A stretch of DNA of 34,112 bases, from the IMG/VR virus record IMGVR_UViG_3300042540_000531, positions 1 to 34,112 of that record. One strand, 5' to 3'. This stretch comes from a virus. Below the pieces are notes generated by a model. That model saw only the letters and a list, made by a program, of their open reading frames with translations. It ran no database searches and was not told the origin of the DNA. The position numbers and the translations under genes are program-made. Positions 2,915 to 34,112 of the stretch are shown in pieces; the stretch's first letter is position 1, and every line of letters begins with the position of its first letter.

Positions 2915-3588
2915 CAGACCACCTTATCTCGGACCTGCCCAGTCCTATACGAATCCTGGCGCTCAAGGCCATCACCAAGGCGCTTGGCAAGAATCAGTGC
3001 TTCCTTGTATCGGCTATTTACCAGATTAACCATGTCCGGCTCACCTTTCAAGAAGGTGTATGCCTCAATCAAACAACCGTACAAGAGCACCGTATCAAAG
3101 TTATCGCCAAGCCATGTGGTCGTAGCGCTAACATCCCCGGCGCCAATAGACGTTGGGTAGTAGAAATAGTGGAGCTCTACTGAATAAGTAAGATCTGGCG
3201 TAGGACCAAGTATAAATACCAGCTCTTTGGTATTCGTTGGATAGTCAGGCCCAAACAATGCGTAACAGTATGGTCGGCCGGTATTGCCCGCTCCGGTCGG
3301 AATCGGGAAAGACTCCCGAATAAAGTTCACATCTTTGTTAAGCAGGTAATGATAGGAACCGTCTGTATCAATCACTGCAAATGAATAGGGCGCAAGAAAA
3401 TCGTCCGGTGCCTGCAAGTATCGATTACTTGCCACACAGGCTGCCGTCACGTTTTTCCGTAGCGATGGAAACTGTACAGTGTTAAAGATCCGCTGCTCAG
3501 CTTGCTGCGCAAACGTCTGAAGCGTTGCCGTCTCAAACGTCGTTTCGCAAAAATCTTGAATCGCAGTCTTAAGCTCGCCCCAATTCAT
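2914..3588 (-). CDS. Head-tail connector / adaptor-like protein
   Basis: 224 residues from ATG at 3588, with AAGGAG 6 bases upstream. It opens with MNWGELKTAIQDFCETTFE, then FAQQAEQRIFNTVQFPSLRK, a helical start followed by a central strand-rich part. The C-terminal helices (LLYGCLIEAYTFLKGEPDMV, then YKEALILAKRLGDG) are typical of phage adaptor proteins that bind below the portal. It resembles the connector and tail-tubular protein class in shape and position; the exact family was not resolved. Its stop overlaps the next gene by one base, so the two are probably translated together. Confidence 0.7.
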   Translation of the reverse strand: MNWGELKTAIQDFCETTFETATLQTFAQQAEQRIFNTVQFPSLRKNVTAACVASNRYLQAPDDFLAPYSFAVIDTDGSYHYLLNKDVNFIRESFPIPTGAGNTGRPYCYALFGPDYPTNTKELVFILGPTPDLTYSVELHYFYYPTSIGAGDVSATTTWLGDNFDTVLLYGCLIEAYTFLKGEPDMVNLVNSRYKEALILAKRLGDGLERQDSYRTGQVRDKVV

Positions 3589-3597
3589 GATGGCTCC

Positions 3598-3858
3598 TTA
3601 AGCCATTGGCCCTCGACACATCGTACCTTTAGTGGCCGCACCGGCTCCACGCATTTTAATGCCAGAAGTCTTAACTTGGCTATTGGGATTCATAGCTACA
3701 CCATGAGTAGGCTGCCAGTCCTTAACCATGTTGTATGGCATTTCCTTGCCCGGGCTGGGCGATGCCACAACCTTGGCGCCAGTCATCGTATGCGGCTCTG
3801 CGTAAACAGATGCCGGACCGACTTCTTTGCCACCTTGCTTCATTGAATACTTAGCCAT
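3598..3858 (-). CDS. Small basic Gly/Lys-rich virion-type protein
   Basis: 86 residues, beginning MAKYSMKQGGKEVGPASVY. It is basic and of low complexity. It ends in AGAATKGTMCRGPMA, a variant of the A(T/S)KGKT(K/R)G tail seen in three other small proteins of this operon (9833, 10129 and 10762). It lies between the connector-type gene and another small basic protein. No known domain was recognised. The shared tail suggests a common partner or a nucleic-acid-binding role inside the particle; this is inference. Confidence 0.65.
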   Translation of the reverse strand: MAKYSMKQGGKEVGPASVYAEPHTMTGAKVVASPSPGKEMPYNMVKDWQPTHGVAMNPNSQVKTSGIKMRGAGAATKGTMCRGPMA

Positions 3859-3861
3859 GGA

Positions 3862-4032
3862 TTACCCCTGGTTGCGTGCGCGTGCGAGATTGCGACCCAT
3901 CTTCCTCATCATCTCTGATGTTGGTCCGCCCTTGCGCATTTTTGTCAAAGGCTTTCCTGGGTGCATGGCTTTCTCGTGCTTGTGTACCGCAGCAGCCGCG
4001 GTCTTTTTGTCCTGCTTGATGTCGTCTTTCAT
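3862..4032 (-). CDS. Small highly basic protein (56 residues)
   Basis: I place the start at ATG 4032 (MKDDIKQDKKTAAAAVHKHE) because AGGAG precedes it by 6 bases. A longer frame reaching 4143 would overlap the next gene and has no ribosome site. The protein is Lys/Arg-rich with a Met-rich middle (SEMMRKMGRNLARARNQG at the end) and an MHPGKP motif. It has no cysteines or membrane segment. It could bind DNA or RNA or be a minor capsid component. Function not recognised. Confidence 0.65.
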   Translation of the reverse strand: MKDDIKQDKKTAAAAVHKHEKAMHPGKPLTKMRKGGPTSEMMRKMGRNLARARNQG

Positions 4033-4040
4033 GTCGGCTC

Positions 4041-4466
4041 CTAAGATGCTGTGACACTGTTCAACAATGCTTGACCCACAAGGTGATTGGGAGTCATGCC
4101 GTAATCGTATGATCTTGCACCGCCAACCGGATTGAAGCCCCATTCAATAGTTCGGCTTCCTTCAAGAGGAACTCCCGTATATAGCGGGTTAGTTCCTACC
4201 GTGTTGTTCGTCTGCATCCCGTTGTAGCCTGACTGGTAATACGAATTGGAATCGGGACGTGGATTCCGTACGGCCTGCGGATCGTTCACGGGAAACATGC
4301 CTAGCTGCAACTGCGGCTGATCAGGTTCCCAGCAAGTCGGACATACCAGTATATTGACATTTTTTGTCTTAATTGTCAGCGGTTTTAGCTGTTTTAGCTT
4401 ATAGCGGAACCCGCAGCGATCACACTGCGATATTGCCCACTTACCACTGGCAAACTGATTGGGCAT
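4041..4466 (-). CDS. Zinc-ribbon virion protein
   Basis: 141 residues. The N-terminal third carries two CxxC pairs (CDRC at residues 15-18, CPTC at 42-45) separated by a basic strand (RYKLKQLKPLTIKTKNVNIL), a zinc ribbon. After WEPDQPQLQLGMFPVNDPQA the rest is Asn/Tyr/Gly-rich and probably extended. This layout is very common in uncultured tailed phages beside connector genes, and is usually left as hypothetical. The start follows the upstream stop directly (TAA then ATG). It is probably a structural or assembly protein; the ribbon may bind DNA or protein. Confidence 0.75.
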   Translation of the reverse strand: MPNQFASGKWAISQCDRCGFRYKLKQLKPLTIKTKNVNILVCPTCWEPDQPQLQLGMFPVNDPQAVRNPRPDSNSYYQSGYNGMQTNNTVGTNPLYTGVPLEGSRTIEWGFNPVGGARSYDYGMTPNHLVGQALLNSVTAS

Positions 4467-10723: not shown

Positions 10724-10765
10724 CCCCCTACTTTAGTAGTAAATTCCGCCAGCTGGCGGATTTAC
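10724..10765 (-). repeat. Palindromic 42-base element, intergenic copy
   Basis: Contains the perfect 16-base palindrome TCCGCCAGCTGGCGGA (10745-10760), flanked by GTAAA on one side and by AATTTACTACTAAAGTAGGGGG on the other (read on minus). The same arrangement recurs at 21028-21069 and 30236-30277. Here it fills the gap between two virion genes and its GTAGGGGG end acts as the ribosome site of the next gene. As RNA it can form a hairpin of about six to nine base pairs. Confidence 0.85.
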
Positions 10766-11007
10766 TTCATCACGACCATTTTGCCTTTAGTCTTGCCTTT
10801 CTTGGCGCATCCATCAGCAGCTTTGACATAACCGCCGGCCTTGAACATCCTGCCAAGGTTAGGACGCTGATCCATCTTTCTTAGCTTGGCATCCTCTACC
10901 TCTTGCTGCATCGCACCCTTCTCTTTCTGGGTGGGCACAAGATCGTAGTTAGGGTTGTAGTTCGTGTCGCCATGGCGCCCACGGCCTCTACGGGGATCAT
11001 TTTCCAT
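10762..11007 (-). CDS. Small basic virion-type protein with KGKTKGK tail
   Basis: 81 residues from ATG 11007 (MENDPRRGRGRHGDTNYNPN). This ATG has AGGA at a proper 7-base spacing, whereas the ATG two codons earlier is almost on top of that site. Motifs: a basic Gly-rich N-terminus, a Lys/Glu helix (KEKGAMQQEVEDAKLRKM), then LGRMFKAGGYVKAADG and the shared CAKKGKTKGKMVVMK tail. The MFKAGGYVK-type segment is common in small environmental phage proteins. Function unknown; a virion role is inferred from its position. Confidence 0.7.
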   Translation of the reverse strand: MENDPRRGRGRHGDTNYNPNYDLVPTQKEKGAMQQEVEDAKLRKMDQRPNLGRMFKAGGYVKAADGCAKKGKTKGKMVVMK

Positions 11008-20848: not shown

Positions 20849-21761
20849 CACTCAACCTCTTCTGCACCTCATCCCTAGCTTCCTCCCTAGGCTGCCACTC
20901 TATCTTCGGCACCTCCCCCATCGTCTCCGCATACCACCGCTTAGGATCCTCCCATATCGGCTTCTCCTTTTTTCTCCTACCCCCCTTATGGGAACCCACT
21001 TCCTTTTCAAGGGGGGCCTCTTCCTGAGTAAATCCGCCAGCTGGCGGAATTGTAGACTTTAGTAGGGGGTGGGGGTCTTCTGGATCGGCAAAGTTATCGG
21101 TGGGTACGTGTGGATTTGAATATTTATCAGAAGGTTCGTGTGGATTATTGGACCTTGCGCCGCCCCTGCCCGCCCCGCCACTTTGTGCCCCCTCCCCCTG
21201 GGTGGGGTCGCCCTCGTGCGCGTGCGCGTGTGTGCCTGCGTCCGTGCGTGCCTCCACGTCGATCACCCCGCCGAGCCGCGCCAGCTTTTCCCTGAGCTTG
21301 GCCGTGGTATCGCCGCCGCGCTCATGCGTGATAACCGAGCGGGTTTCGAAGGCTGCAACATCCGCAAGCTTGCCTAGTAGCTCGAGAGCCCTGAGCCGAT
21401 CGCCTGGACGTTGAGCCGTTCGCGCCTCATGCTGAAGGGAATCAACGACAAAGTTTCTTATGTCAAGGGGGTTTTGCGAATACCTCAACCTCTGCACCGC
21501 CTTTTCTTGCGCCAGCGCTTGCTGCACTTCCGGCCGCTTCGCCACCTTCCACGCCGCTGTGCTAACCGACCTCGAGGTTCCGCCGGGTTCGAACGCTTCG
21601 ATGAACGCTTCGCGCTTGCCTGCGCCCTCTGCCATACGTTGAACGAACTGCCGCTCTCGAGGTGATAGCTCTACGTGAGGCATGAGCACCTTATCTGCTG
21701 GCACTCCCCGCTGAATTGCCTTCAATGCTGCCGCTGGTAGCTCTACCCCTTCGCTTGCCAT
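20829..21761 (-). CDS. terS: Terminase small subunit-like
   Basis: 310 residues, ATG 21761 with GAGGT upstream. The N-terminal half carries LSPRERQFVQRMAEGAGKRE and FIEAFEPGG, then STAAWKVAKRPEVQQALAQE, the helix-turn-helix pattern of small terminases. The helical oligomerisation part runs through RALELLGKLADVAAFE. The C-terminal 130 residues are long for the family. They are low complexity with His/Gly-rich THAHAHEGDPTQ, and include IPPAGGF encoded by the palindromic element at 21028. It recognises the packaging start and hands DNA to the large subunit. It is the first gene of the late operon, behind the promoter at 21792. Confidence 0.8.
   Translation of the reverse strand: MASEGVELPAAALKAIQRGVPADKVLMPHVELSPRERQFVQRMAEGAGKREAFIEAFEPGGTSRSVSTAAWKVAKRPEVQQALAQEKAVQRLRYSQNPLDIRNFVVDSLQHEARTAQRPGDRLRALELLGKLADVAAFETRSVITHERGGDTTAKLREKLARLGGVIDVEARTDAGTHAHAHEGDPTQGEGAQSGGAGRGGARSNNPHEPSDKYSNPHVPTDNFADPEDPHPLLKSTIPPAGGFTQEEAPLEKEVGSHKGGRRKKEKPIWEDPKRWYAETMGEVPKIEWQPREEARDEVQKRLSDDQGGG
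21028..21069 (+). repeat. Palindromic 42-base element, copy inside small terminase
   Basis: GTAAA, palindrome TCCGCCAGCTGGCGGA (21033-21048), then AATTGTAGACTTTAGTAGGGGG. On the coding (minus) strand it reads PLLKSTIPPAGGFT in the terminase C-terminal extension. It is nearly identical to the copies at 10724 and 30236. Confidence 0.9.
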
Positions 21762-28266: not shown

Positions 28267-29786
28267 ACCAACCTCCTTGCAAACTTACTCTTCGCATACT
28301 TGATGACCTGCTGCTTGACCTTGTTCTGCGTAACCATCCTGGGCTCCACAAAGACCGCCTCGTGGAACTTCCACTTAGGCCAATCCCCAGTCAGGTTCTT
28401 GTACTGAGCCTTGGCAAACCGCTCGGCCGCCGCAAGATCCCCGCGCTTCCTGTCCTTGCTGATCTGCACAATCTCCCACCAGACCAGCCGCCTGTCCGCC
28501 ATCCAATCAGATGACTTGGTGCCGCCAAACTCCACCATCTGACCCTGAACCGAAAGCACATTGCTCATGGCCCTGCGCTCTGATCCACACGATGGACACA
28601 CCCGGCCGCGGAACATGTACCCACAAGCCGTGCATTTGATCTCTGCCTTCTCCTTCTCAGTCGGCTCCTTGCGTACCTTGGCATCCAGCTTTCCGTCTTC
28701 TAGTTCCTGTACGCCATGGGCAAATACCTCTACCTGATCCTCCCAGAACCGAGTCAGATTGCCTGCGTGATCTAACCAAACCGCGAAGGCCTTGCCGGGA
28801 TTCGGGCGCATGACCCTGCCCATCTGCTGAATATGGCCTGATAATGATTTTCTATATGGCCTGGCACATACACCGATTTTAATATCTGTAACATCAAATC
28901 CTTTTGCTAATGCTTCACAGGATATTAATCCGATTATCTCGCTGTCTGGTTTTCTGAACTCATCGATTAATTCCCTGCGCCGTTCATTATTACCATCCTT
29001 ATAACTGATTTGCTGAAAGTTATAACCCCTCTGTGCAAACTCTCTGCATAATTCCTCACCGTGTGCAACGGTTGCGCTAAATACAATAGTTTTAACTGGG
29101 CCGCCAAAGTGTTTATTCGTTGCTTGCACCCACTCGGTAACAACATCGCCAACGATCTCAACTCCTTGTTTTTCCATATCTTTTTCTGCCCACTCGCCGT
29201 CAAACTTAACTTCGGCGCCGCGCATATCCATCTCGTTCTTCGCTACAAACATTTTAACTGGCACTAACCAACCGTCATTAATTAGTTTATCGGTCGTGGT
29301 GCTATTTACTACGTTAGTAAATATCTTTGATAATCCTTTTGTAAATGGTGTTGCAGTTAATCCAACAACAATTGCATCAGGATATTTTTCAATCGCATTA
29401 ATTACTGAACGGTGTAATACATGCGCTTCATCAACAACGATTAACTTTGGTTCATTATCTATCTTGCGACGCGCTAATGTCTGCGCGGATATAACCTGCA
29501 CATATTCGTATGGACGCCACCGCCAGTGATCCGCCTGTATGACGCCATGGGATACGCCATACCTATCCAGTGTTGCGCTGGTCTGGTCTACCAGTGACAC
29601 GCGATCGCATATAAACCAAGCCACGTTCTGCTTGGCCCTTGCCTCGTTCAGTAAGTAGCTGGCACTGACCGTCTTGCCCGCGCCAGTTGGCGCAACCAGG
29701 ATCTGGGATCGATGCCCCTTGCGGACGCCATCCCTCAGTTCATCCAGTGCTTTGATTTGGTAGTCACGCAGACTTTCGATCAGCAT
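28263..29786 (-). CDS. SF2 DEAH helicase
   Basis: 507 residues from ATG 29786 (MLIESLRDYQIKALDELRDG; GGAAG 4 bases upstream), preferred to an ATG 15 codons earlier. Motifs: Q-like LRDYQ; Walker A APTGAGKT (32-39); DEAH (119-122); TATPF (144-148); VFSAT (235-239); arginine finger QMGRVMRP (321-328). A zinc ribbon follows (C385, C388, C397, C400). This is the Type III restriction/DEAD-like helicase class used by many phages for replication or recombination. The start overlaps the ParB-like gene by 23 bases. With the Toprim protein it probably serves DNA replication. Confidence 0.9.
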   Translation of the reverse strand: MLIESLRDYQIKALDELRDGVRKGHRSQILVAPTGAGKTVSASYLLNEARAKQNVAWFICDRVSLVDQTSATLDRYGVSHGVIQADHWRWRPYEYVQVISAQTLARRKIDNEPKLIVVDEAHVLHRSVINAIEKYPDAIVVGLTATPFTKGLSKIFTNVVNSTTTDKLINDGWLVPVKMFVAKNEMDMRGAEVKFDGEWAEKDMEKQGVEIVGDVVTEWVQATNKHFGGPVKTIVFSATVAHGEELCREFAQRGYNFQQISYKDGNNERRRELIDEFRKPDSEIIGLISCEALAKGFDVTDIKIGVCARPYRKSLSGHIQQMGRVMRPNPGKAFAVWLDHAGNLTRFWEDQVEVFAHGVQELEDGKLDAKVRKEPTEKEKAEIKCTACGYMFRGRVCPSCGSERRAMSNVLSVQGQMVEFGGTKSSDWMADRRLVWWEIVQISKDRKRGDLAAAERFAKAQYKNLTGDWPKWKFHEAVFVEPRMVTQNKVKQQVIKYAKSKFARRLV

Positions 29787-30582
29787 GTTTCTTCCAATAC
29801 AGAACTTGTTTCTTGAGTTCGGCGCACTCACGCTGCCACTTGTCCCGTGCCTCGGTGAGGTTGTCGATCGTGGACTGCATTTGCTTCATGGTTTGGTAGT
29901 GCTCTGTATCCCTGAGCGCTGTAAGGATCGTTACTTCCTTGGCCAACTCTTGGTAGTTATCAAGGATCTCTTGATACTGCTCATTCAGCTCGTCGTAAGA
30001 CGCCTTCAGAGCGTCGTACTTCTCTTGTGCCACGGCTGACTTCAAGACGGGTTTAACGGGCGCTGGTGGCACGTTCTCTGGCTCATCCTTGTCTACCACC
30101 CTGATTGCCTCTGAGAGGCTCATAGCGCCTTTCTTGACCGCCTCAATGACCTCCTGGTCGCCTGACTGCGCAACCTTCTTGGCCCGCTCTACCGATCGCT
30201 TGCCTACTCCAGCACGCTTGGCCATCTCATCTGAGGTAATTCCGCCAGCTGGCGGAATTTGATACTTTCGTAGGGGGGTACCCACGCCTGCCCATGTACT
30301 GCAAGTGACCACGGCCATGGCTTTTTGTGCTGGTGATAGATGCCGGCGATGAAGATTCAGGTCGATGACATAGGCCACTGGGTCTTTGCCATCGTACTCA
30401 TGGAAGGATGGATTGATGTCCAGCTGTAAGCAGGCACGGAACCTATGCCATCCGTCCAGGATCTTGTTCTCATACGTGGTGATGGGTTCACGCTGCCCAT
30501 GGGTTTTGATGGATTCCAATAGGTCTTGGAAGTCCTCATCGGGCATGTCGGGGAATGCTGCTGATAACTGGTGTCTTTCCAT
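29764..30582 (-). CDS. ParB-like DNA-binding protein
   Basis: 272 residues from ATG 30582. The N-terminal ParB/sulfiredoxin-like fold carries LLESIKTHGQREPITTYENK and ILDGWHRFRAC (41-51, the nucleotide/catalytic region), then LNLHRRHLSPAQKAMAVV. A helix-turn-helix follows (SDEMAKRAGVGKRSVERAKK, 117-136). Inserted before the HTH is YQIPPAGGIT, encoded by the palindromic element at 30236. The C-terminus is a coiled coil (185-265). ParB-like phage proteins act in DNA partition, regulation or as nucleases. Its AAGAGAGAA ribosome site falls in the last, degenerate repeat of the array. Confidence 0.85.
   Translation of the reverse strand: MERHQLSAAFPDMPDEDFQDLLESIKTHGQREPITTYENKILDGWHRFRACLQLDINPSFHEYDGKDPVAYVIDLNLHRRHLSPAQKAMAVVTCSTWAGVGTPLRKYQIPPAGGITSDEMAKRAGVGKRSVERAKKVAQSGDQEVIEAVKKGAMSLSEAIRVVDKDEPENVPPAPVKPVLKSAVAQEKYDALKASYDELNEQYQEILDNYQELAKEVTILTALRDTEHYQTMKQMQSTIDNLTEARDKWQRECAELKKQVLYWKKHADRKSA
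30236..30277 (+). repeat. Palindromic 42-base element, copy inside the ParB-like gene
   Basis: GTAAT, palindrome TCCGCCAGCTGGCGGA (30241-30256), then ATTTGATACTTTCGTAGGGGG. On the coding strand it reads PLRKYQIPPAGGIT, just before the HTH. Compare 10724 and 21028. Confidence 0.9.
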
Positions 30583-31719
30583 ATTTCTCTCTTAAGTTAA
30601 TGACGCTCGGTAACTTTGGTGCTCACGATTTTTTTGACTCACTTCACGATAATGGTTCTCTCTCAAGTGCTGGTTCGTTCGTGTACTTTGGTTCTCTCAG
30701 CCTGGCTGACTCACTCTCATACCAAGGTTCTCTCGCAATCTCTGGTTCGTTCTGGACGATTGGTTCTCTCTCTTTTTCTGACTCGCTCGGCCGAATTGGT
30801 GCTCTTGGCCAACTTGGCTCACTCTCGATTTATGGTTCTCTTCCATTGCTTGGTTCGTTTACAACTTGTGGTTCTCTCCATTAACTTGACTCACTCTGGG
30901 CGGATGGTGCTCTGGGCTCGAGTGGTTCACTTGACCGATTTGGTTCTCTCTCCGCTCTAGGTTCGTTCGGCTGACCCGGTTCTTTCTGCGTCGATGACTC
31001 ACTTTCCGTTCATGGTTCTCTCTTGATCGGCGATTCGTTCGGCTGACTAGGTTCCATCTGCGTCGATGACTCACTTTCCGGAAATGGTTCTCTTGCTTGT
31101 TTAGGTTCGTTCTGTCGCGCTGGTTCTCTCTCTTAATGTGACTCGTTCCTGTTGGCAGGCTCTCTTACCCGACATGACTCACTCTATCAACGATAAAACT
31201 ATCAGTGGTCTTGGTTCGTTTCGCTCCTATGGTTCTCTCAGATGTGTTGACTCGTTCTGTCTGCATGGCTCTCTCAATCTAGCTGACTCGTTCGCATGAA
31301 TTGGTTCTATCGATTACCTTGACTCGCTTCCTCAGCATGGTGCTATTTATACCCCTGGCTCGTTCTATGTGTGTGGTTCTCTCACTCTGAGTGACTCGTT
31401 CTATTCATATGGCACTCTCATCAAAGCTGACTCGTTTGATCTCCTTGGTTCTCTCGATGCTCGGTGACTCGTTCTCGTGATATGGATCTCTCGGGCTTCT
31501 TGACTCGCTCTGACTGATTGGTTCTCTCTTCAAAAATGACTCGTTCTTTGTTGATGGTTCTCTCAATGCTCATGACTCGTTCACTAATAGTGGTTCTCTC
31601 GCGCAGATTGACTCGTTCCTTCTGTATGGTTCTCTCAGAGCAGATGACTCGTTCTATGGTTTTGGTTCTATCTTGTTCGATGACTCACTCTCATAACTTG
31701 GAGCTCTCACCTAGGGTGG
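30582..31719 (-). repeat. TIGR-like dual-spacer guide RNA array
   Basis: Regular array with an 18-base step from 30617 to 31716 (61 steps), plus a 16-base degenerate step at 30601 and a remnant at 30582. Two repeats alternate strictly (plus-strand form): A, consensus TGGTTCTCTC (14 exact copies), and B, consensus TGACTCGTTC (9 exact; variants TGACTCACTC, TGGTTCGTTC). Each is followed by a unique 8-base spacer, so one full unit is 36 bases with two spacers, about 31 units. Only two steps are 19 bases (31193, 31446) and one A repeat is ruined (31193). It ends at the stop codon of the Nop-like gene (31720) and at the start of the ParB-like gene. On the operon strand repeats read GAGAGAACCA and GAACGAGTCA. 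This matches the published TIGR layout. Confidence 0.9.
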
Positions 31720-32514
31720 TTAAACAGGTGACGGTATGAAATGAGCATGGCCCATGTGTGCAATCGGATAGGGCAGTGGCGGCTTTGTGCCAAAGTGCGT
31801 CTCATACCATGCGCCGTGCAGGTGTGATAAGAAAAGCTTCACTGCATACCTTCTTGCTCTTGCATCGATCTGGCCTGGTGGTAGTACGCCATTGGATAGA
31901 TGCTTGTAAGCTTCCGTGGTTTTACTTACCTTCTCCTTAAGTTGCTCGGCCAGTTCCTTGTTATCACCACGCTCATTGCGGGCGATCTCAAAGTTCTTGC
32001 GCTCCCTGTATATGTGACCGTAGTAGCAGTCATCACGGCCAGAGAATTTCATAAAGGATTGGCCAGCCTTCCAGCAAAGCGTCTTCAGTCCTGCATTCCA
32101 TGGGCGCTTCTGCCCCTTTTCCCATTTGCTTGTGGGATCTAATCCAGCATAGCGCCAGATATGTCCAACAGTAGGGGCCTTCTCAATATCAATGTGCGCT
32201 AACAGCCCCGCGGAAATGACCGGCCCGATGCCGACGATCTCACGCATCCATGCGCCCATGACGTGCGACTCAGTGTAGGAATCAAGCGCCTTCTTGATCT
32301 GCTCTTCCAAGCCCTTGGATTGGGATGCTAGCCAGCCGATCACCGCATTGGGCTCCATGGATTCATCCAGCGCCCGGACTTGGTTGGTGGAACGCTTACG
32401 GTCCTCCTGGGCGATGTAGTAGTAATCGACCAGGAATCTTGCCTCATCATCAGACAGCTTGGCGGCTGCGACTTTAAGGTCCTTGGTCAGCTTCATGATT
32501 GGTTCTAAGTTCAT
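31720..32514 (-). CDS. IS110/Nop-domain protein, Tas-like guide RNA partner
   Basis: 264 residues from ATG 32514, overlapping the winged-helix stop (ATGA). N-terminal 90 residues are helical (coiled-coil-like, LASQSKGLEEQIKKALDSYT). Then comes the IS110 Transposase_20/Nop-type core: VGIGPVISAGLLAHID (94-109, helix-hairpin-helix), IWRYAGLDP (119-127), NAGLKTLCWKAGQSFMK (140-156), a charged helix, and YAVKLFLSHLHGAWYETHFG (213-232). It lacks the N-terminal RuvC-like DEDD domain of true IS110 transposases, and shows no HNH or RuvC insert. Together with the adjoining 36-base array this fits a nuclease-less Tas protein that would bind dual-guide RNA. It could act by binding alone (silencing) or recruit a separate nuclease. 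Alternative: an IS110 relic, less likely given the array. Confidence 0.8.
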   Translation of the reverse strand: MNLEPIMKLTKDLKVAAAKLSDDEARFLVDYYYIAQEDRKRSTNQVRALDESMEPNAVIGWLASQSKGLEEQIKKALDSYTESHVMGAWMREIVGIGPVISAGLLAHIDIEKAPTVGHIWRYAGLDPTSKWEKGQKRPWNAGLKTLCWKAGQSFMKFSGRDDCYYGHIYRERKNFEIARNERGDNKELAEQLKEKVSKTTEAYKHLSNGVLPPGQIDARARRYAVKLFLSHLHGAWYETHFGTKPPLPYPIAHMGHAHFIPSPV

Positions 32515-32975: not shown

Positions 32976-33242
32976 TCACCTCATTCCTCGTATGGCGGTG
33001 GCGCTGTAGTCGGGACGAACCCAATCGCCTTTTGCTATGGCGATGCAGTCGTCCGAATCCAGCATGTAATCGCCTTCAGTGACGCAGTAATCGTCTTCCT
33101 CTTTGATCGCCTTGCAGATGCGATCACGCTCATGATCGGCAACAAGGGCAGCAAAACGTGTTACAGAACCTAATGGCTTTTCGTCAGATCCGTAAGCCAA
33201 TCCAGCCTCCCGCGCCATGCGGATGATGTCCTCGCGGTCCAT
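32976..33242 (-). CDS. Phage modular small protein (MAREAG family)
   Basis: 88 residues: MDREDIIRMAREAGLAYGSD, RFAALVADHERDRICKAIKE, and an Asp/Tyr-rich C-terminal (TEGDYMLDSDDCIAIAKGDW) that differs from its relatives. The start overlaps the stop of the 40-residue gene by one base (TGATG). Function unknown. Confidence 0.7.
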   Translation of the reverse strand: MDREDIIRMAREAGLAYGSDEKPLGSVTRFAALVADHERDRICKAIKEEDDYCVTEGDYMLDSDDCIAIAKGDWVRPDYSATAIRGMR

Positions 33243-33364
33243 CAGAACGGTGCCTCTTCAATAGGCTCCTCCGCCACGGGTTGCTTCTCAAGCACCTCTC
33301 CGTCTTCGCAGTAGTGGTATTTGAATGGCCATTTATCGCCAAGCTGTTTGATGATTTCGTCCAT
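33242..33364 (-). CDS. 40-residue acidic protein
   Basis: ATG 33364 with a strong AAGGAG 6 bases upstream, TGA 33242-33244 overlapping the next start by one base. The product reads MDEIIKQLGDKWPFKYHYCE, then DGEVLEKQPVAEEPIEEAPF. An amphipathic helix and a Pro/Glu tail. The ribosome site and tight coupling argue for a real gene despite the length. Function unknown. Confidence 0.65.
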   Translation of the reverse strand: MDEIIKQLGDKWPFKYHYCEDGEVLEKQPVAEEPIEEAPF

Positions 33365-33403
33365 GGTTATCTCCTTGTCGGTAGGAGTATTTAACCACAG
33401 TTT

Positions 33404-33419
33404 TATGCGTTTGTGCATA
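33404..33419. promoter_or_regulatory. TATGC/GCATA inverted repeat
   Basis: TATGC (33404-33408) and GCATA (33415-33419) flank GTTTGT in the 78-base gap between two minus genes. A TTAAAT-like -10 lies downstream on the minus strand, but no good -35 was found. It shares the TATGCG half-site with the inverted repeat at 21779. Confidence 0.35.
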
Positions 33420-33442
33420 CCGTTCGTCAGGTCGATGAGCGG

Positions 33443-33661
33443 TCACCAGAGGTAGATCTTGATGTCACTTAGTTCAAGCGCAGGCGTCTCGGTCCTGGCC
33501 ATCACGTTCTGGCACATGTTGCACACGCGTCTCGCGCCATGGCTATCATGCACCTTGCCAGTCTGTCTGATGCCACCAGTCGAGTACATCCGACACGCTG
33601 TATCGCTACCAGTCCATATGTGAGCTGCTGCACTACGTTTATTGAAAAAGTAGTATTTCAT
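33443..33661 (-). CDS. Small cysteine-containing protein
   Basis: 72 residues from ATG 33661, with GGAG 7 bases upstream; the upstream part of the open frame to 33808 crosses a terminator and stems and is not coding in my view. MKYYFFNKRSAAAHIWTGSD, then TACRMYSTGGIRQTGKVHDS and RRVCNMCQN. C24 with the CNMC pair might bind zinc. It opens the array operon. Function unknown. Confidence 0.7.
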   Translation of the reverse strand: MKYYFFNKRSAAAHIWTGSDTACRMYSTGGIRQTGKVHDSHGARRVCNMCQNVMARTETPALELSDIKIYLW

Positions 33662-33694
33662 GACCTGCTCCGAGAGAGTGAGTGAAGTGGAGAC

Positions 33695-33739
33695 AAAAAG
33701 TAGGCCTAGAGGACTGCTCGTGCAATCCTGCTTAGGCCT
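33695..33739 (-). terminator. Terminator at the end of the structured region
   Basis: On the minus strand, AGGCCTA (33739-33733) pairs with TAGGCCT (33708-33702) and AGGA with TCCT inside. Then follow A-C and TTTTT (33699-33695). It ends a transcript arriving from 33.8 kb and beyond, immediately before the first gene of the array operon, so it could be an attenuator or the end of a separate small RNA. Confidence 0.7.
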
Positions 33740-34112
33740 TACCTGCTCGTCGGTCGTTTCGTTCGCCTCGACAGGGGCTACGTTCAGTCGCTGACGTAAC
33801 CTATCCACCGGATTAAGCCATGCGACACATGGCTTTCCCTAACACACATCCGGTGGGCATCGTTACTCTCACAACCGTGTACCGTCTCAATGAAGGATCG
33901 GATTGGTCTCGCCATCCAAGGCAGCTAACCCTTACGACACGCCTCCCTGTGGGCCGCTCTGGGAGTCCTCTGTGCGGCGGATACTTGCAAGCCAGAACTG
34001 TTGTGGCTCTGCTCCTTGGGGACTCCACGTTCGCCGATGCCATGACGCAGTACGGTTACTTGCTACCTACCCTCGGTCTGAAGCCTTTCCCGATAGACTC
34101 TTGCAAGGTCGG
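33740..34112 (-). ncRNA. Candidate structured RNA (extends past the window)
   Basis: No convincing gene lies in this 373-base stretch. Several perfect stems occur: TACGT/ACGTA plus CAG/CTG (33779-33798); AAGCCATG/CATGGCTT with a 5-base loop (33815-33835), nested inside CCACCGGAT (33805-33813)/ATCCGGTGG (33848-33856); and GGAGTCC (33962-33968)/GGACTCC (34020-34026). They end in the minus-strand terminator at 33695. This suggests an ornate RNA or a long leader. Class unknown; large phage RNAs such as GOLLD or ROOL are possibilities to test. A 76-codon frame at 33813-34043 has no family likeness and crosses the stems. Confidence 0.4.

Follow-up and report, generated by a model that had tools for sequence, protein, structure and literature searches.

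Here, we describe a large structured non-coding RNA, predicted by comparative sequence analysis, that is carried by uncultured phages. The window (the whole stretch of DNA analysed) is a linear IMG/VR virus record of 34,112 bases, IMGVR_UViG_3300042540_000531, whose genes include those for terminase, portal, head, helicase, and primase. Its closest cultured terminase kin (approximately 52 to 57% identity) are the freshwater-lake phage DSL-LC04, a seawater phage, and Pelagibacter phages. The region at the end of this contig is read as the 3′ three quarters of the RNA, running leftward (Table 1). We find the features of large structured phage non-coding RNAs: considerable length, a covarying fold, no conserved reading frame, and a putative promoter and terminator. 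The element is thus classed, from these features, as a large ornate phage RNA. It appears to represent a new family, as far as searches of Rfam 15 and the open literature show.

The preliminary description had offered two readings of this region; the first, that a large structured RNA has its 3′ part here, is borne out by homologous contigs. Four IMG/VR contigs (L037 to L040, with three distinct sequences) contain the whole element. In L037, L039, and L040 it extends approximately 150 nt past position 34112, for a total length of approximately 563 nt, and the complete element runs from about L037:3401 to the 3′ hairpin. The 5′ ~150 nt of the window RNA, together with its promoter, fall outside the contig end and are seen in the homologs. 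The 5′ edge is sharp: sequences upstream of the element are dissimilar between L037 and L039/L040, the element itself is 88% identical, and more than 100 nt of its core are identical. Furthermore, L037 is an independent contig colinear with window positions 33124 to 34112 (989 nt, 95% identity), ruling out host DNA or an assembly chimera at the contig end. Because L037 is continuous across the join between the RNA and its downstream sequence, this join is genuine in the window.

Table 1. Coordinates of the predicted RNA, its parts, and neighboring features in the window.
Feature	Position	Strand	Remarks
3′ ~418 nt of a ~563-nt predicted structured non-coding RNA	33695..34112	-	Alignment A1 with L037/L039/L040
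5′ half of core, closed by helix 1 (34100-34104 with 33987-33991)	33987..34104	-	
Helix 8 stem-loop, conserved ACAGAAG loop	33953..33978	-	
Conserved 3′ domain, modelled as R1/R2	33771..33950	-	R1 matches window, 199 bits, E 3e-43
Helix 15 (9-bp stem) around helix 16 (33816-33834)	33805..33856	-	
Helix 17, bulged stem	33776..33801	-	
3′ hairpin with U-run, putative intrinsic terminator	33695..33741	-	Fold kept despite unrelated sequence
72-aa protein with CxxC pair, downstream of RNA	33443..33661	-	Starts 34 nt past U-run
TasA-like (Nop/IS110-type) protein	31720..32514	-	Pfam Transposase_20, PHROG 4285
TIGR dual-repeat array	30590..31715	-	36-nt period, repeats GAGAGAACCA / GAACGAGTCA
ParB-like gene (tasParB)	29764..30582	-	PHROG ParB matches

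The first four homologs were found through the adjoining 72-aa gene and an exact 18-mer from the core. A degenerate pattern drawn from the best-conserved blocks returned 14 homologs, 13 of them new, and a second pattern, drawn from the opposite half of the core and not overlapping the R1 region, returned 18 more. All 18 second-pattern loci are matched by R1 (E 1e-9 to 1e-27), which recognizes the window and 34 other loci and has no match in 63 control loci (680 kb). With the window counted, the family comprises 36 uncultured-phage contigs, which we grouped by sequence into four classes: class 1 (the window, L037-L040, L065, L074, L076, L082, and L086), class 1b (L100, L104-L108, L112, and L113), class 2 (L070, L072, L075, L080, L081, L083, L084, L087, L088, L101, and L109), and class 3 (L099, L102, L103, L110, L111, and L114-L116). 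Classes 2 and 3 have a compact form of approximately 420 nt. L041 probably carries a very diverged member: upstream of a 50%-identical 72-aa CxxC gene, positions 3480 to 4200 contain the motifs GGGGTCTATCGGG, GTTCTGACC, and ACAGAAG, in that order. Neither R1 nor R2 matches in L041. There was no match when the window and three members were compared with a set of cultured phages by blastn, when R2 was run on the four nearest TerL relatives, or when plasmids were searched with one member. A scan of bacterial genomes gave ten chance matches, none recognized by R1 or R2; it used one exact pattern, and chromosomal relatives of divergent sequence may exist.

The evidence for the fold is comparative, because the window's 423-nt piece, folded as a single sequence, does not differ significantly from chance (z -1.35 for the minus strand, -0.89 for the plus strand). 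Full-length folds reach z -3.64 (L037) and -4.83 (L039), and class 2 is weak by folding energy alone (z -1.43). The stems that had drawn attention to the region are all present: perfect stems at 33805-33813/33848-33856 (9 bp), nested around 33815-33822/33828-33835 (8 bp), at 33984-33991/34100-34107 (8 bp), at 33702-33708/33733-33739 and 33962-33968/34020-34026 (7 bp each), and the bulged stem. Their density alone does not exceed chance, as the z score of the window piece indicates; most are nevertheless real, being kept by compensatory change. Homologs show such changes in the 33984/34100 stem, in both stems of the nested pair, and in the bulged stem at 33776-33801. The 33962/34020 stem is not conserved and looks like a chance pairing.

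Covariation was assessed in two alignments. A4 is a plain MAFFT alignment of nine class 1 sequences, from which its structure was derived. Standard pairs occupy 94.9% of its pair cells, compared with 84.6% in shuffled alignments and 36 to 44% when the structure is slid. Doubly changed pairs number 30 (shuffled, 17.5 ± 2.0), and the covariation score is 0.368 (shuffled, 0.179). RNAalifold on a joint MAFFT alignment of classes 1 and 2 gave a poor consensus with helices out of register, which was remedied by fitting classes 2 and 3 to R1. In the resulting A7 (35 3′ domains, 25 distinct rows), where fitting to the R1 structure makes pair counts lean toward that structure, standard pairs make up 93.0% (74.7% shuffled, about 40% slid), 227 cells have compensatory changes (75.3 ± 6.7 in shuffles), and the score of 0.487 (0.198 shuffled) is matched by 0 of 500 shuffles. 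Helices 1 and 8 are each 100% paired in A4, with both sides changed in three of five pairs. Doubly changed pairs account for 7/9 of helix 15 in A4 and 9/9 in A7 (97.8% paired in A7), and for 6/10 and 8/10, respectively, of helix 17. The covariation in A4 and A7 excludes chance stems as the explanation, and the effect size and slid controls make an alignment artefact very unlikely. We conclude that the element is almost certainly a conserved structured RNA. A further pairing, CCTGT/GCAGG (33771-33775 with 33744-33748), was read by eye and is plausible; it would compete with helix 9, and its counterpart is CCUGA/UCAGG in L082, L100, and L104.

The homologs display the opposite of codon-type conservation without compensatory changes: stems covary and frames are unconserved. 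The window's open frames inside 33695-34112 are not retained in L065, L076, or L082, and single-base indels are common among homologs. A coding region is thereby ruled out, in agreement with the earlier reading that no gene is present.

None of the known families named as candidates in the preliminary description (GOLLD, ROOL, group I intron, and HEARO) is supported. Rfam 15 cmscan of the window, L037, L039, L040, and 20 other members gave no family match except neighboring tRNAs, and the search of the window itself was empty. Group I and group II introns and HEARO are rejected on the lack of a model match in these same sequences. The GOLLD model (RF02032) matched none of 18 records (E≤10), its controls giving just sub-cut-off matches, and cmscan likewise gave no GOLLD match with E allowed up to 10; the ROOL model (RF03087) also matched none of the 18 at E≤10, where no positive control responded and cmscan is the main support. 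A TIGR stem-loop array is rejected as well: positions 33300 to 34112 contain no tandem units, and the fold is single and branched. Literature searches covering open-access papers turned up no account of this RNA.

There are nonetheless likenesses to known large RNAs. GOLLD is a large phage and prophage RNA with a conserved 3′ region and a less conserved 5′ region, often located beside tRNA genes (PMC12286853). The present RNA shares the phage location, the conserved 3′ and variable 5′ regions, and, in some members, nearby tRNAs (L088, L099, L100, and L104), but it has no match to the GOLLD model and is shorter (about 420 to 570 nt, against often over 800 nt). Like ROOL, it is phage-borne, complex in fold, and similar in length (the ROOL model has 574 positions); unlike ROOL as described in PMC12286853, it has a sharply variable 5′ domain, and the ROOL model does not match it.

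Most members have a putative σ70-like promoter adjoining the RNA 5′ end (best site in the 290 nt scanned upstream). This site lies 27 nt ahead of the core in seven class 2/3 members and approximately 154 to 187 nt ahead in most class 1/1b members, with scores of 9 to 11 out of 12 in many members versus shuffled means of about 8. Examples are TTGACA-17-TATAGT in L088, 27 nt upstream of the core, and TTGACA-18-TATACT in L082. The scan singled out no plausible promoter in L065, L070, L100, and L101, and the highest-scoring site is farther upstream in L074 and L106. The 5′ slot holds a long hairpin with a terminal U-run in classes 1 and 1b and a tiny hairpin in classes 2 and 3.

At the other end, the minus-strand rho-independent terminator recognized in the preliminary description stands: a hairpin at 33702-33739 is followed by TTTTT (33699-33695). 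A simple terminator scan of the window reported none, because the stem is bulged. L039, L074, L082, L086, L104, and L105 retain the hairpin fold although the sequence that forms it is unrelated. In the window and L039, where the sequence is fully replaced, it has energies of -24.1 and -25.7 kcal/mol (z -5.6 and -6.5). The U-run, strong in L037 as in the window, is shorter or weaker in several others; class 2/3 RNAs close with a strong terminator. On these consensus matches, the RNA is quite probably a free-standing gene that has a promoter and a terminator of its own.

Two features flank the 3′ hairpin. A direct repeat brackets it (window 33750-33743 and 33671-33662, minus strand; also L074, L082, L100, L104, and L105) and its two copies change together from phage to phage (GAGCAGG/GAGCAGG, GAGTCA/GAGTCA, GGCGCAGG/GGCGCAGG); the downstream copy is located at the start of the next gene. 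The CTCACTCAC tract 3′ of the hairpin (33664-33690, minus strand) has 10 nt complementary to the GAGAGTGAGT form of the TIGR repeats. This complementarity is probably fortuitous, given that comparable tracts are present in records with no tasA found.

We propose that the σ70 promoter would drive an RNA that begins with a long hairpin with a U-rich end, the variable 5′ domain, continues into a conserved ~350-nt core of stacked helices, and closes with the 3′ hairpin, whose U-run would terminate transcription. The RNA would be neither a message nor the leader of one particular gene. By analogy with GOLLD and ROOL, we somewhat favor action in trans, as a folded molecule that would bind partners or assemble during infection. 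A very large cis-acting leader (attenuator), in which the core senses a signal and permits read-through into a small downstream early gene, is an unlikely alternative with several points in its favor. The 5′ domain and 3′ hairpin are both terminator-like, the 5′ domains of classes 1 and 1b ending in a long stem and U-run; the conserved CTCACTCAC tract and a start site lie immediately 3′ of the hairpin, and a small gene begins a few tens of nucleotides beyond it in several members. In L037-L040, L074, and L041, the gene after the RNA is the 72-aa CxxC gene or a homolog of it; the 72-aa gene has no Pfam or PHROG match (searched as a longer frame). Across the family, however, downstream genes come from different families (the 72-aa CxxC protein, ParB-like proteins, and others), and some are far away; class 2/3 RNAs, moreover, carry strong terminators at their ends. 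The core also exceeds, in size and branching, any leader RNA known to us. The more specific suggestion of a leader for the array operon is not supported: the array is that of a TIGR-Tas system, other members adjoin other genes, a putative promoter and a 3′ hairpin accompany the RNA in many members, and tasA was not found in 35 RNA-bearing records (fragments, searched without a positive control). Among other neighbors, L039, L065, L074, L082, L105, and L108 have a PD-(D/E)XK exonuclease gene (PHROG 2139) close to the RNA, upstream of it and on the other strand. In L109, the RNA separates terminase/portal genes that run leftward from early genes that run rightward.

The locus itself is variable. 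We retrieved 35 TasA relatives, of which 7 are 92 to 98% identical to the window across 33244-33445. Their similarity ends at 33442-33445, so the structured element occupies a variable slot. The slot reads as coding sequence terminating in KDVKLRIF in L002, L003, L006, and L007 and is filled by a different, apparently non-coding sequence in L004, L008, and L036. A second, distinct non-coding element occupies this locus in L004 (6417-6835, z -3.99), L008, and L036, which are close relatives. Only the 5′ domain of the L004 element is common with the window RNA, and its 3′ part matches L008; we read this L004/L008 pattern as large RNAs shuffling domains. A ribozyme or mobile RNA (a self-splicing intron or HEARO-like element) inserted at a variable phage locus would fit the sharp 5′ edge and the differing content of this slot. 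This origin is nevertheless highly improbable given the lack of an intron or HEARO model match, the intergenic position, and the promoter-like sites of the RNA, and we noticed no maturase or homing nuclease within it.

The leftward early operon of the window carries a TIGR-Tas locus with a ParB-like gene (29764-32514, minus strand; tasA-array-tasParB type), which has an array of approximately 30 units, about 2 kb downstream of the RNA, and 35 IMG/VR relatives (lowest identity 48%). The same arrangement of a tasA-tasParB operon and dual-repeat array has been reported (PMC12045711), and the TasA-like gene is related to the locus of Salicola phage CGphi29, a TIGR-Tas example in that work. A repeat of ~45 nt that contains a palindrome (AATTCCGCCAGCTGGCGGAATT with TAGTAGGGGG) occurs three times in the window (10724-10769, 21027-21070, and 30232-30277), with one copy falling within the ParB-like gene. 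That the RNA belongs to the TIGR system, as a stem-loop array or a processing partner of the TIGR array, is suggested by its position upstream of tasA and by the 10-nt complementarity, but is the least probable reading of all: unlike the TIGR-Tas guide arrays of PMC12045711, one of which the same phage carries, the RNA forms a single large fold that is not repetitive and has neither dual repeats nor tandem stem-loops, tasA was not found in the 35 RNA-bearing records (searched with no positive control), and R1, run on 28 records of relatives of the array genes and 72-aa gene, matched RNA-bearing L037 alone.

To our knowledge, only a few RNAs of bacteria or phages exceed 400 nt and have a complex fold that is conserved. 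We tentatively suggest, as a possibility short of an even chance, that the RNA described here adds another lineage to the giant ornate RNAs of phages, alongside GOLLD and ROOL. Its 5′ domain would be swappable and common to an unrelated core at the same variable locus (L004), phages would mix RNA modules, and the RNAs may form RNA-only particles or remodel the host. With approximately 25 distinct sequences, a covariance model, a compact ~420-nt form, and clear module boundaries, the family provides a comparative system for giant phage RNAs. It allows one to ask what roles such RNAs, GOLLD and ROOL among them, play, whether they share RNA-only assembly, and why 5′ domains are exchanged between unrelated cores.
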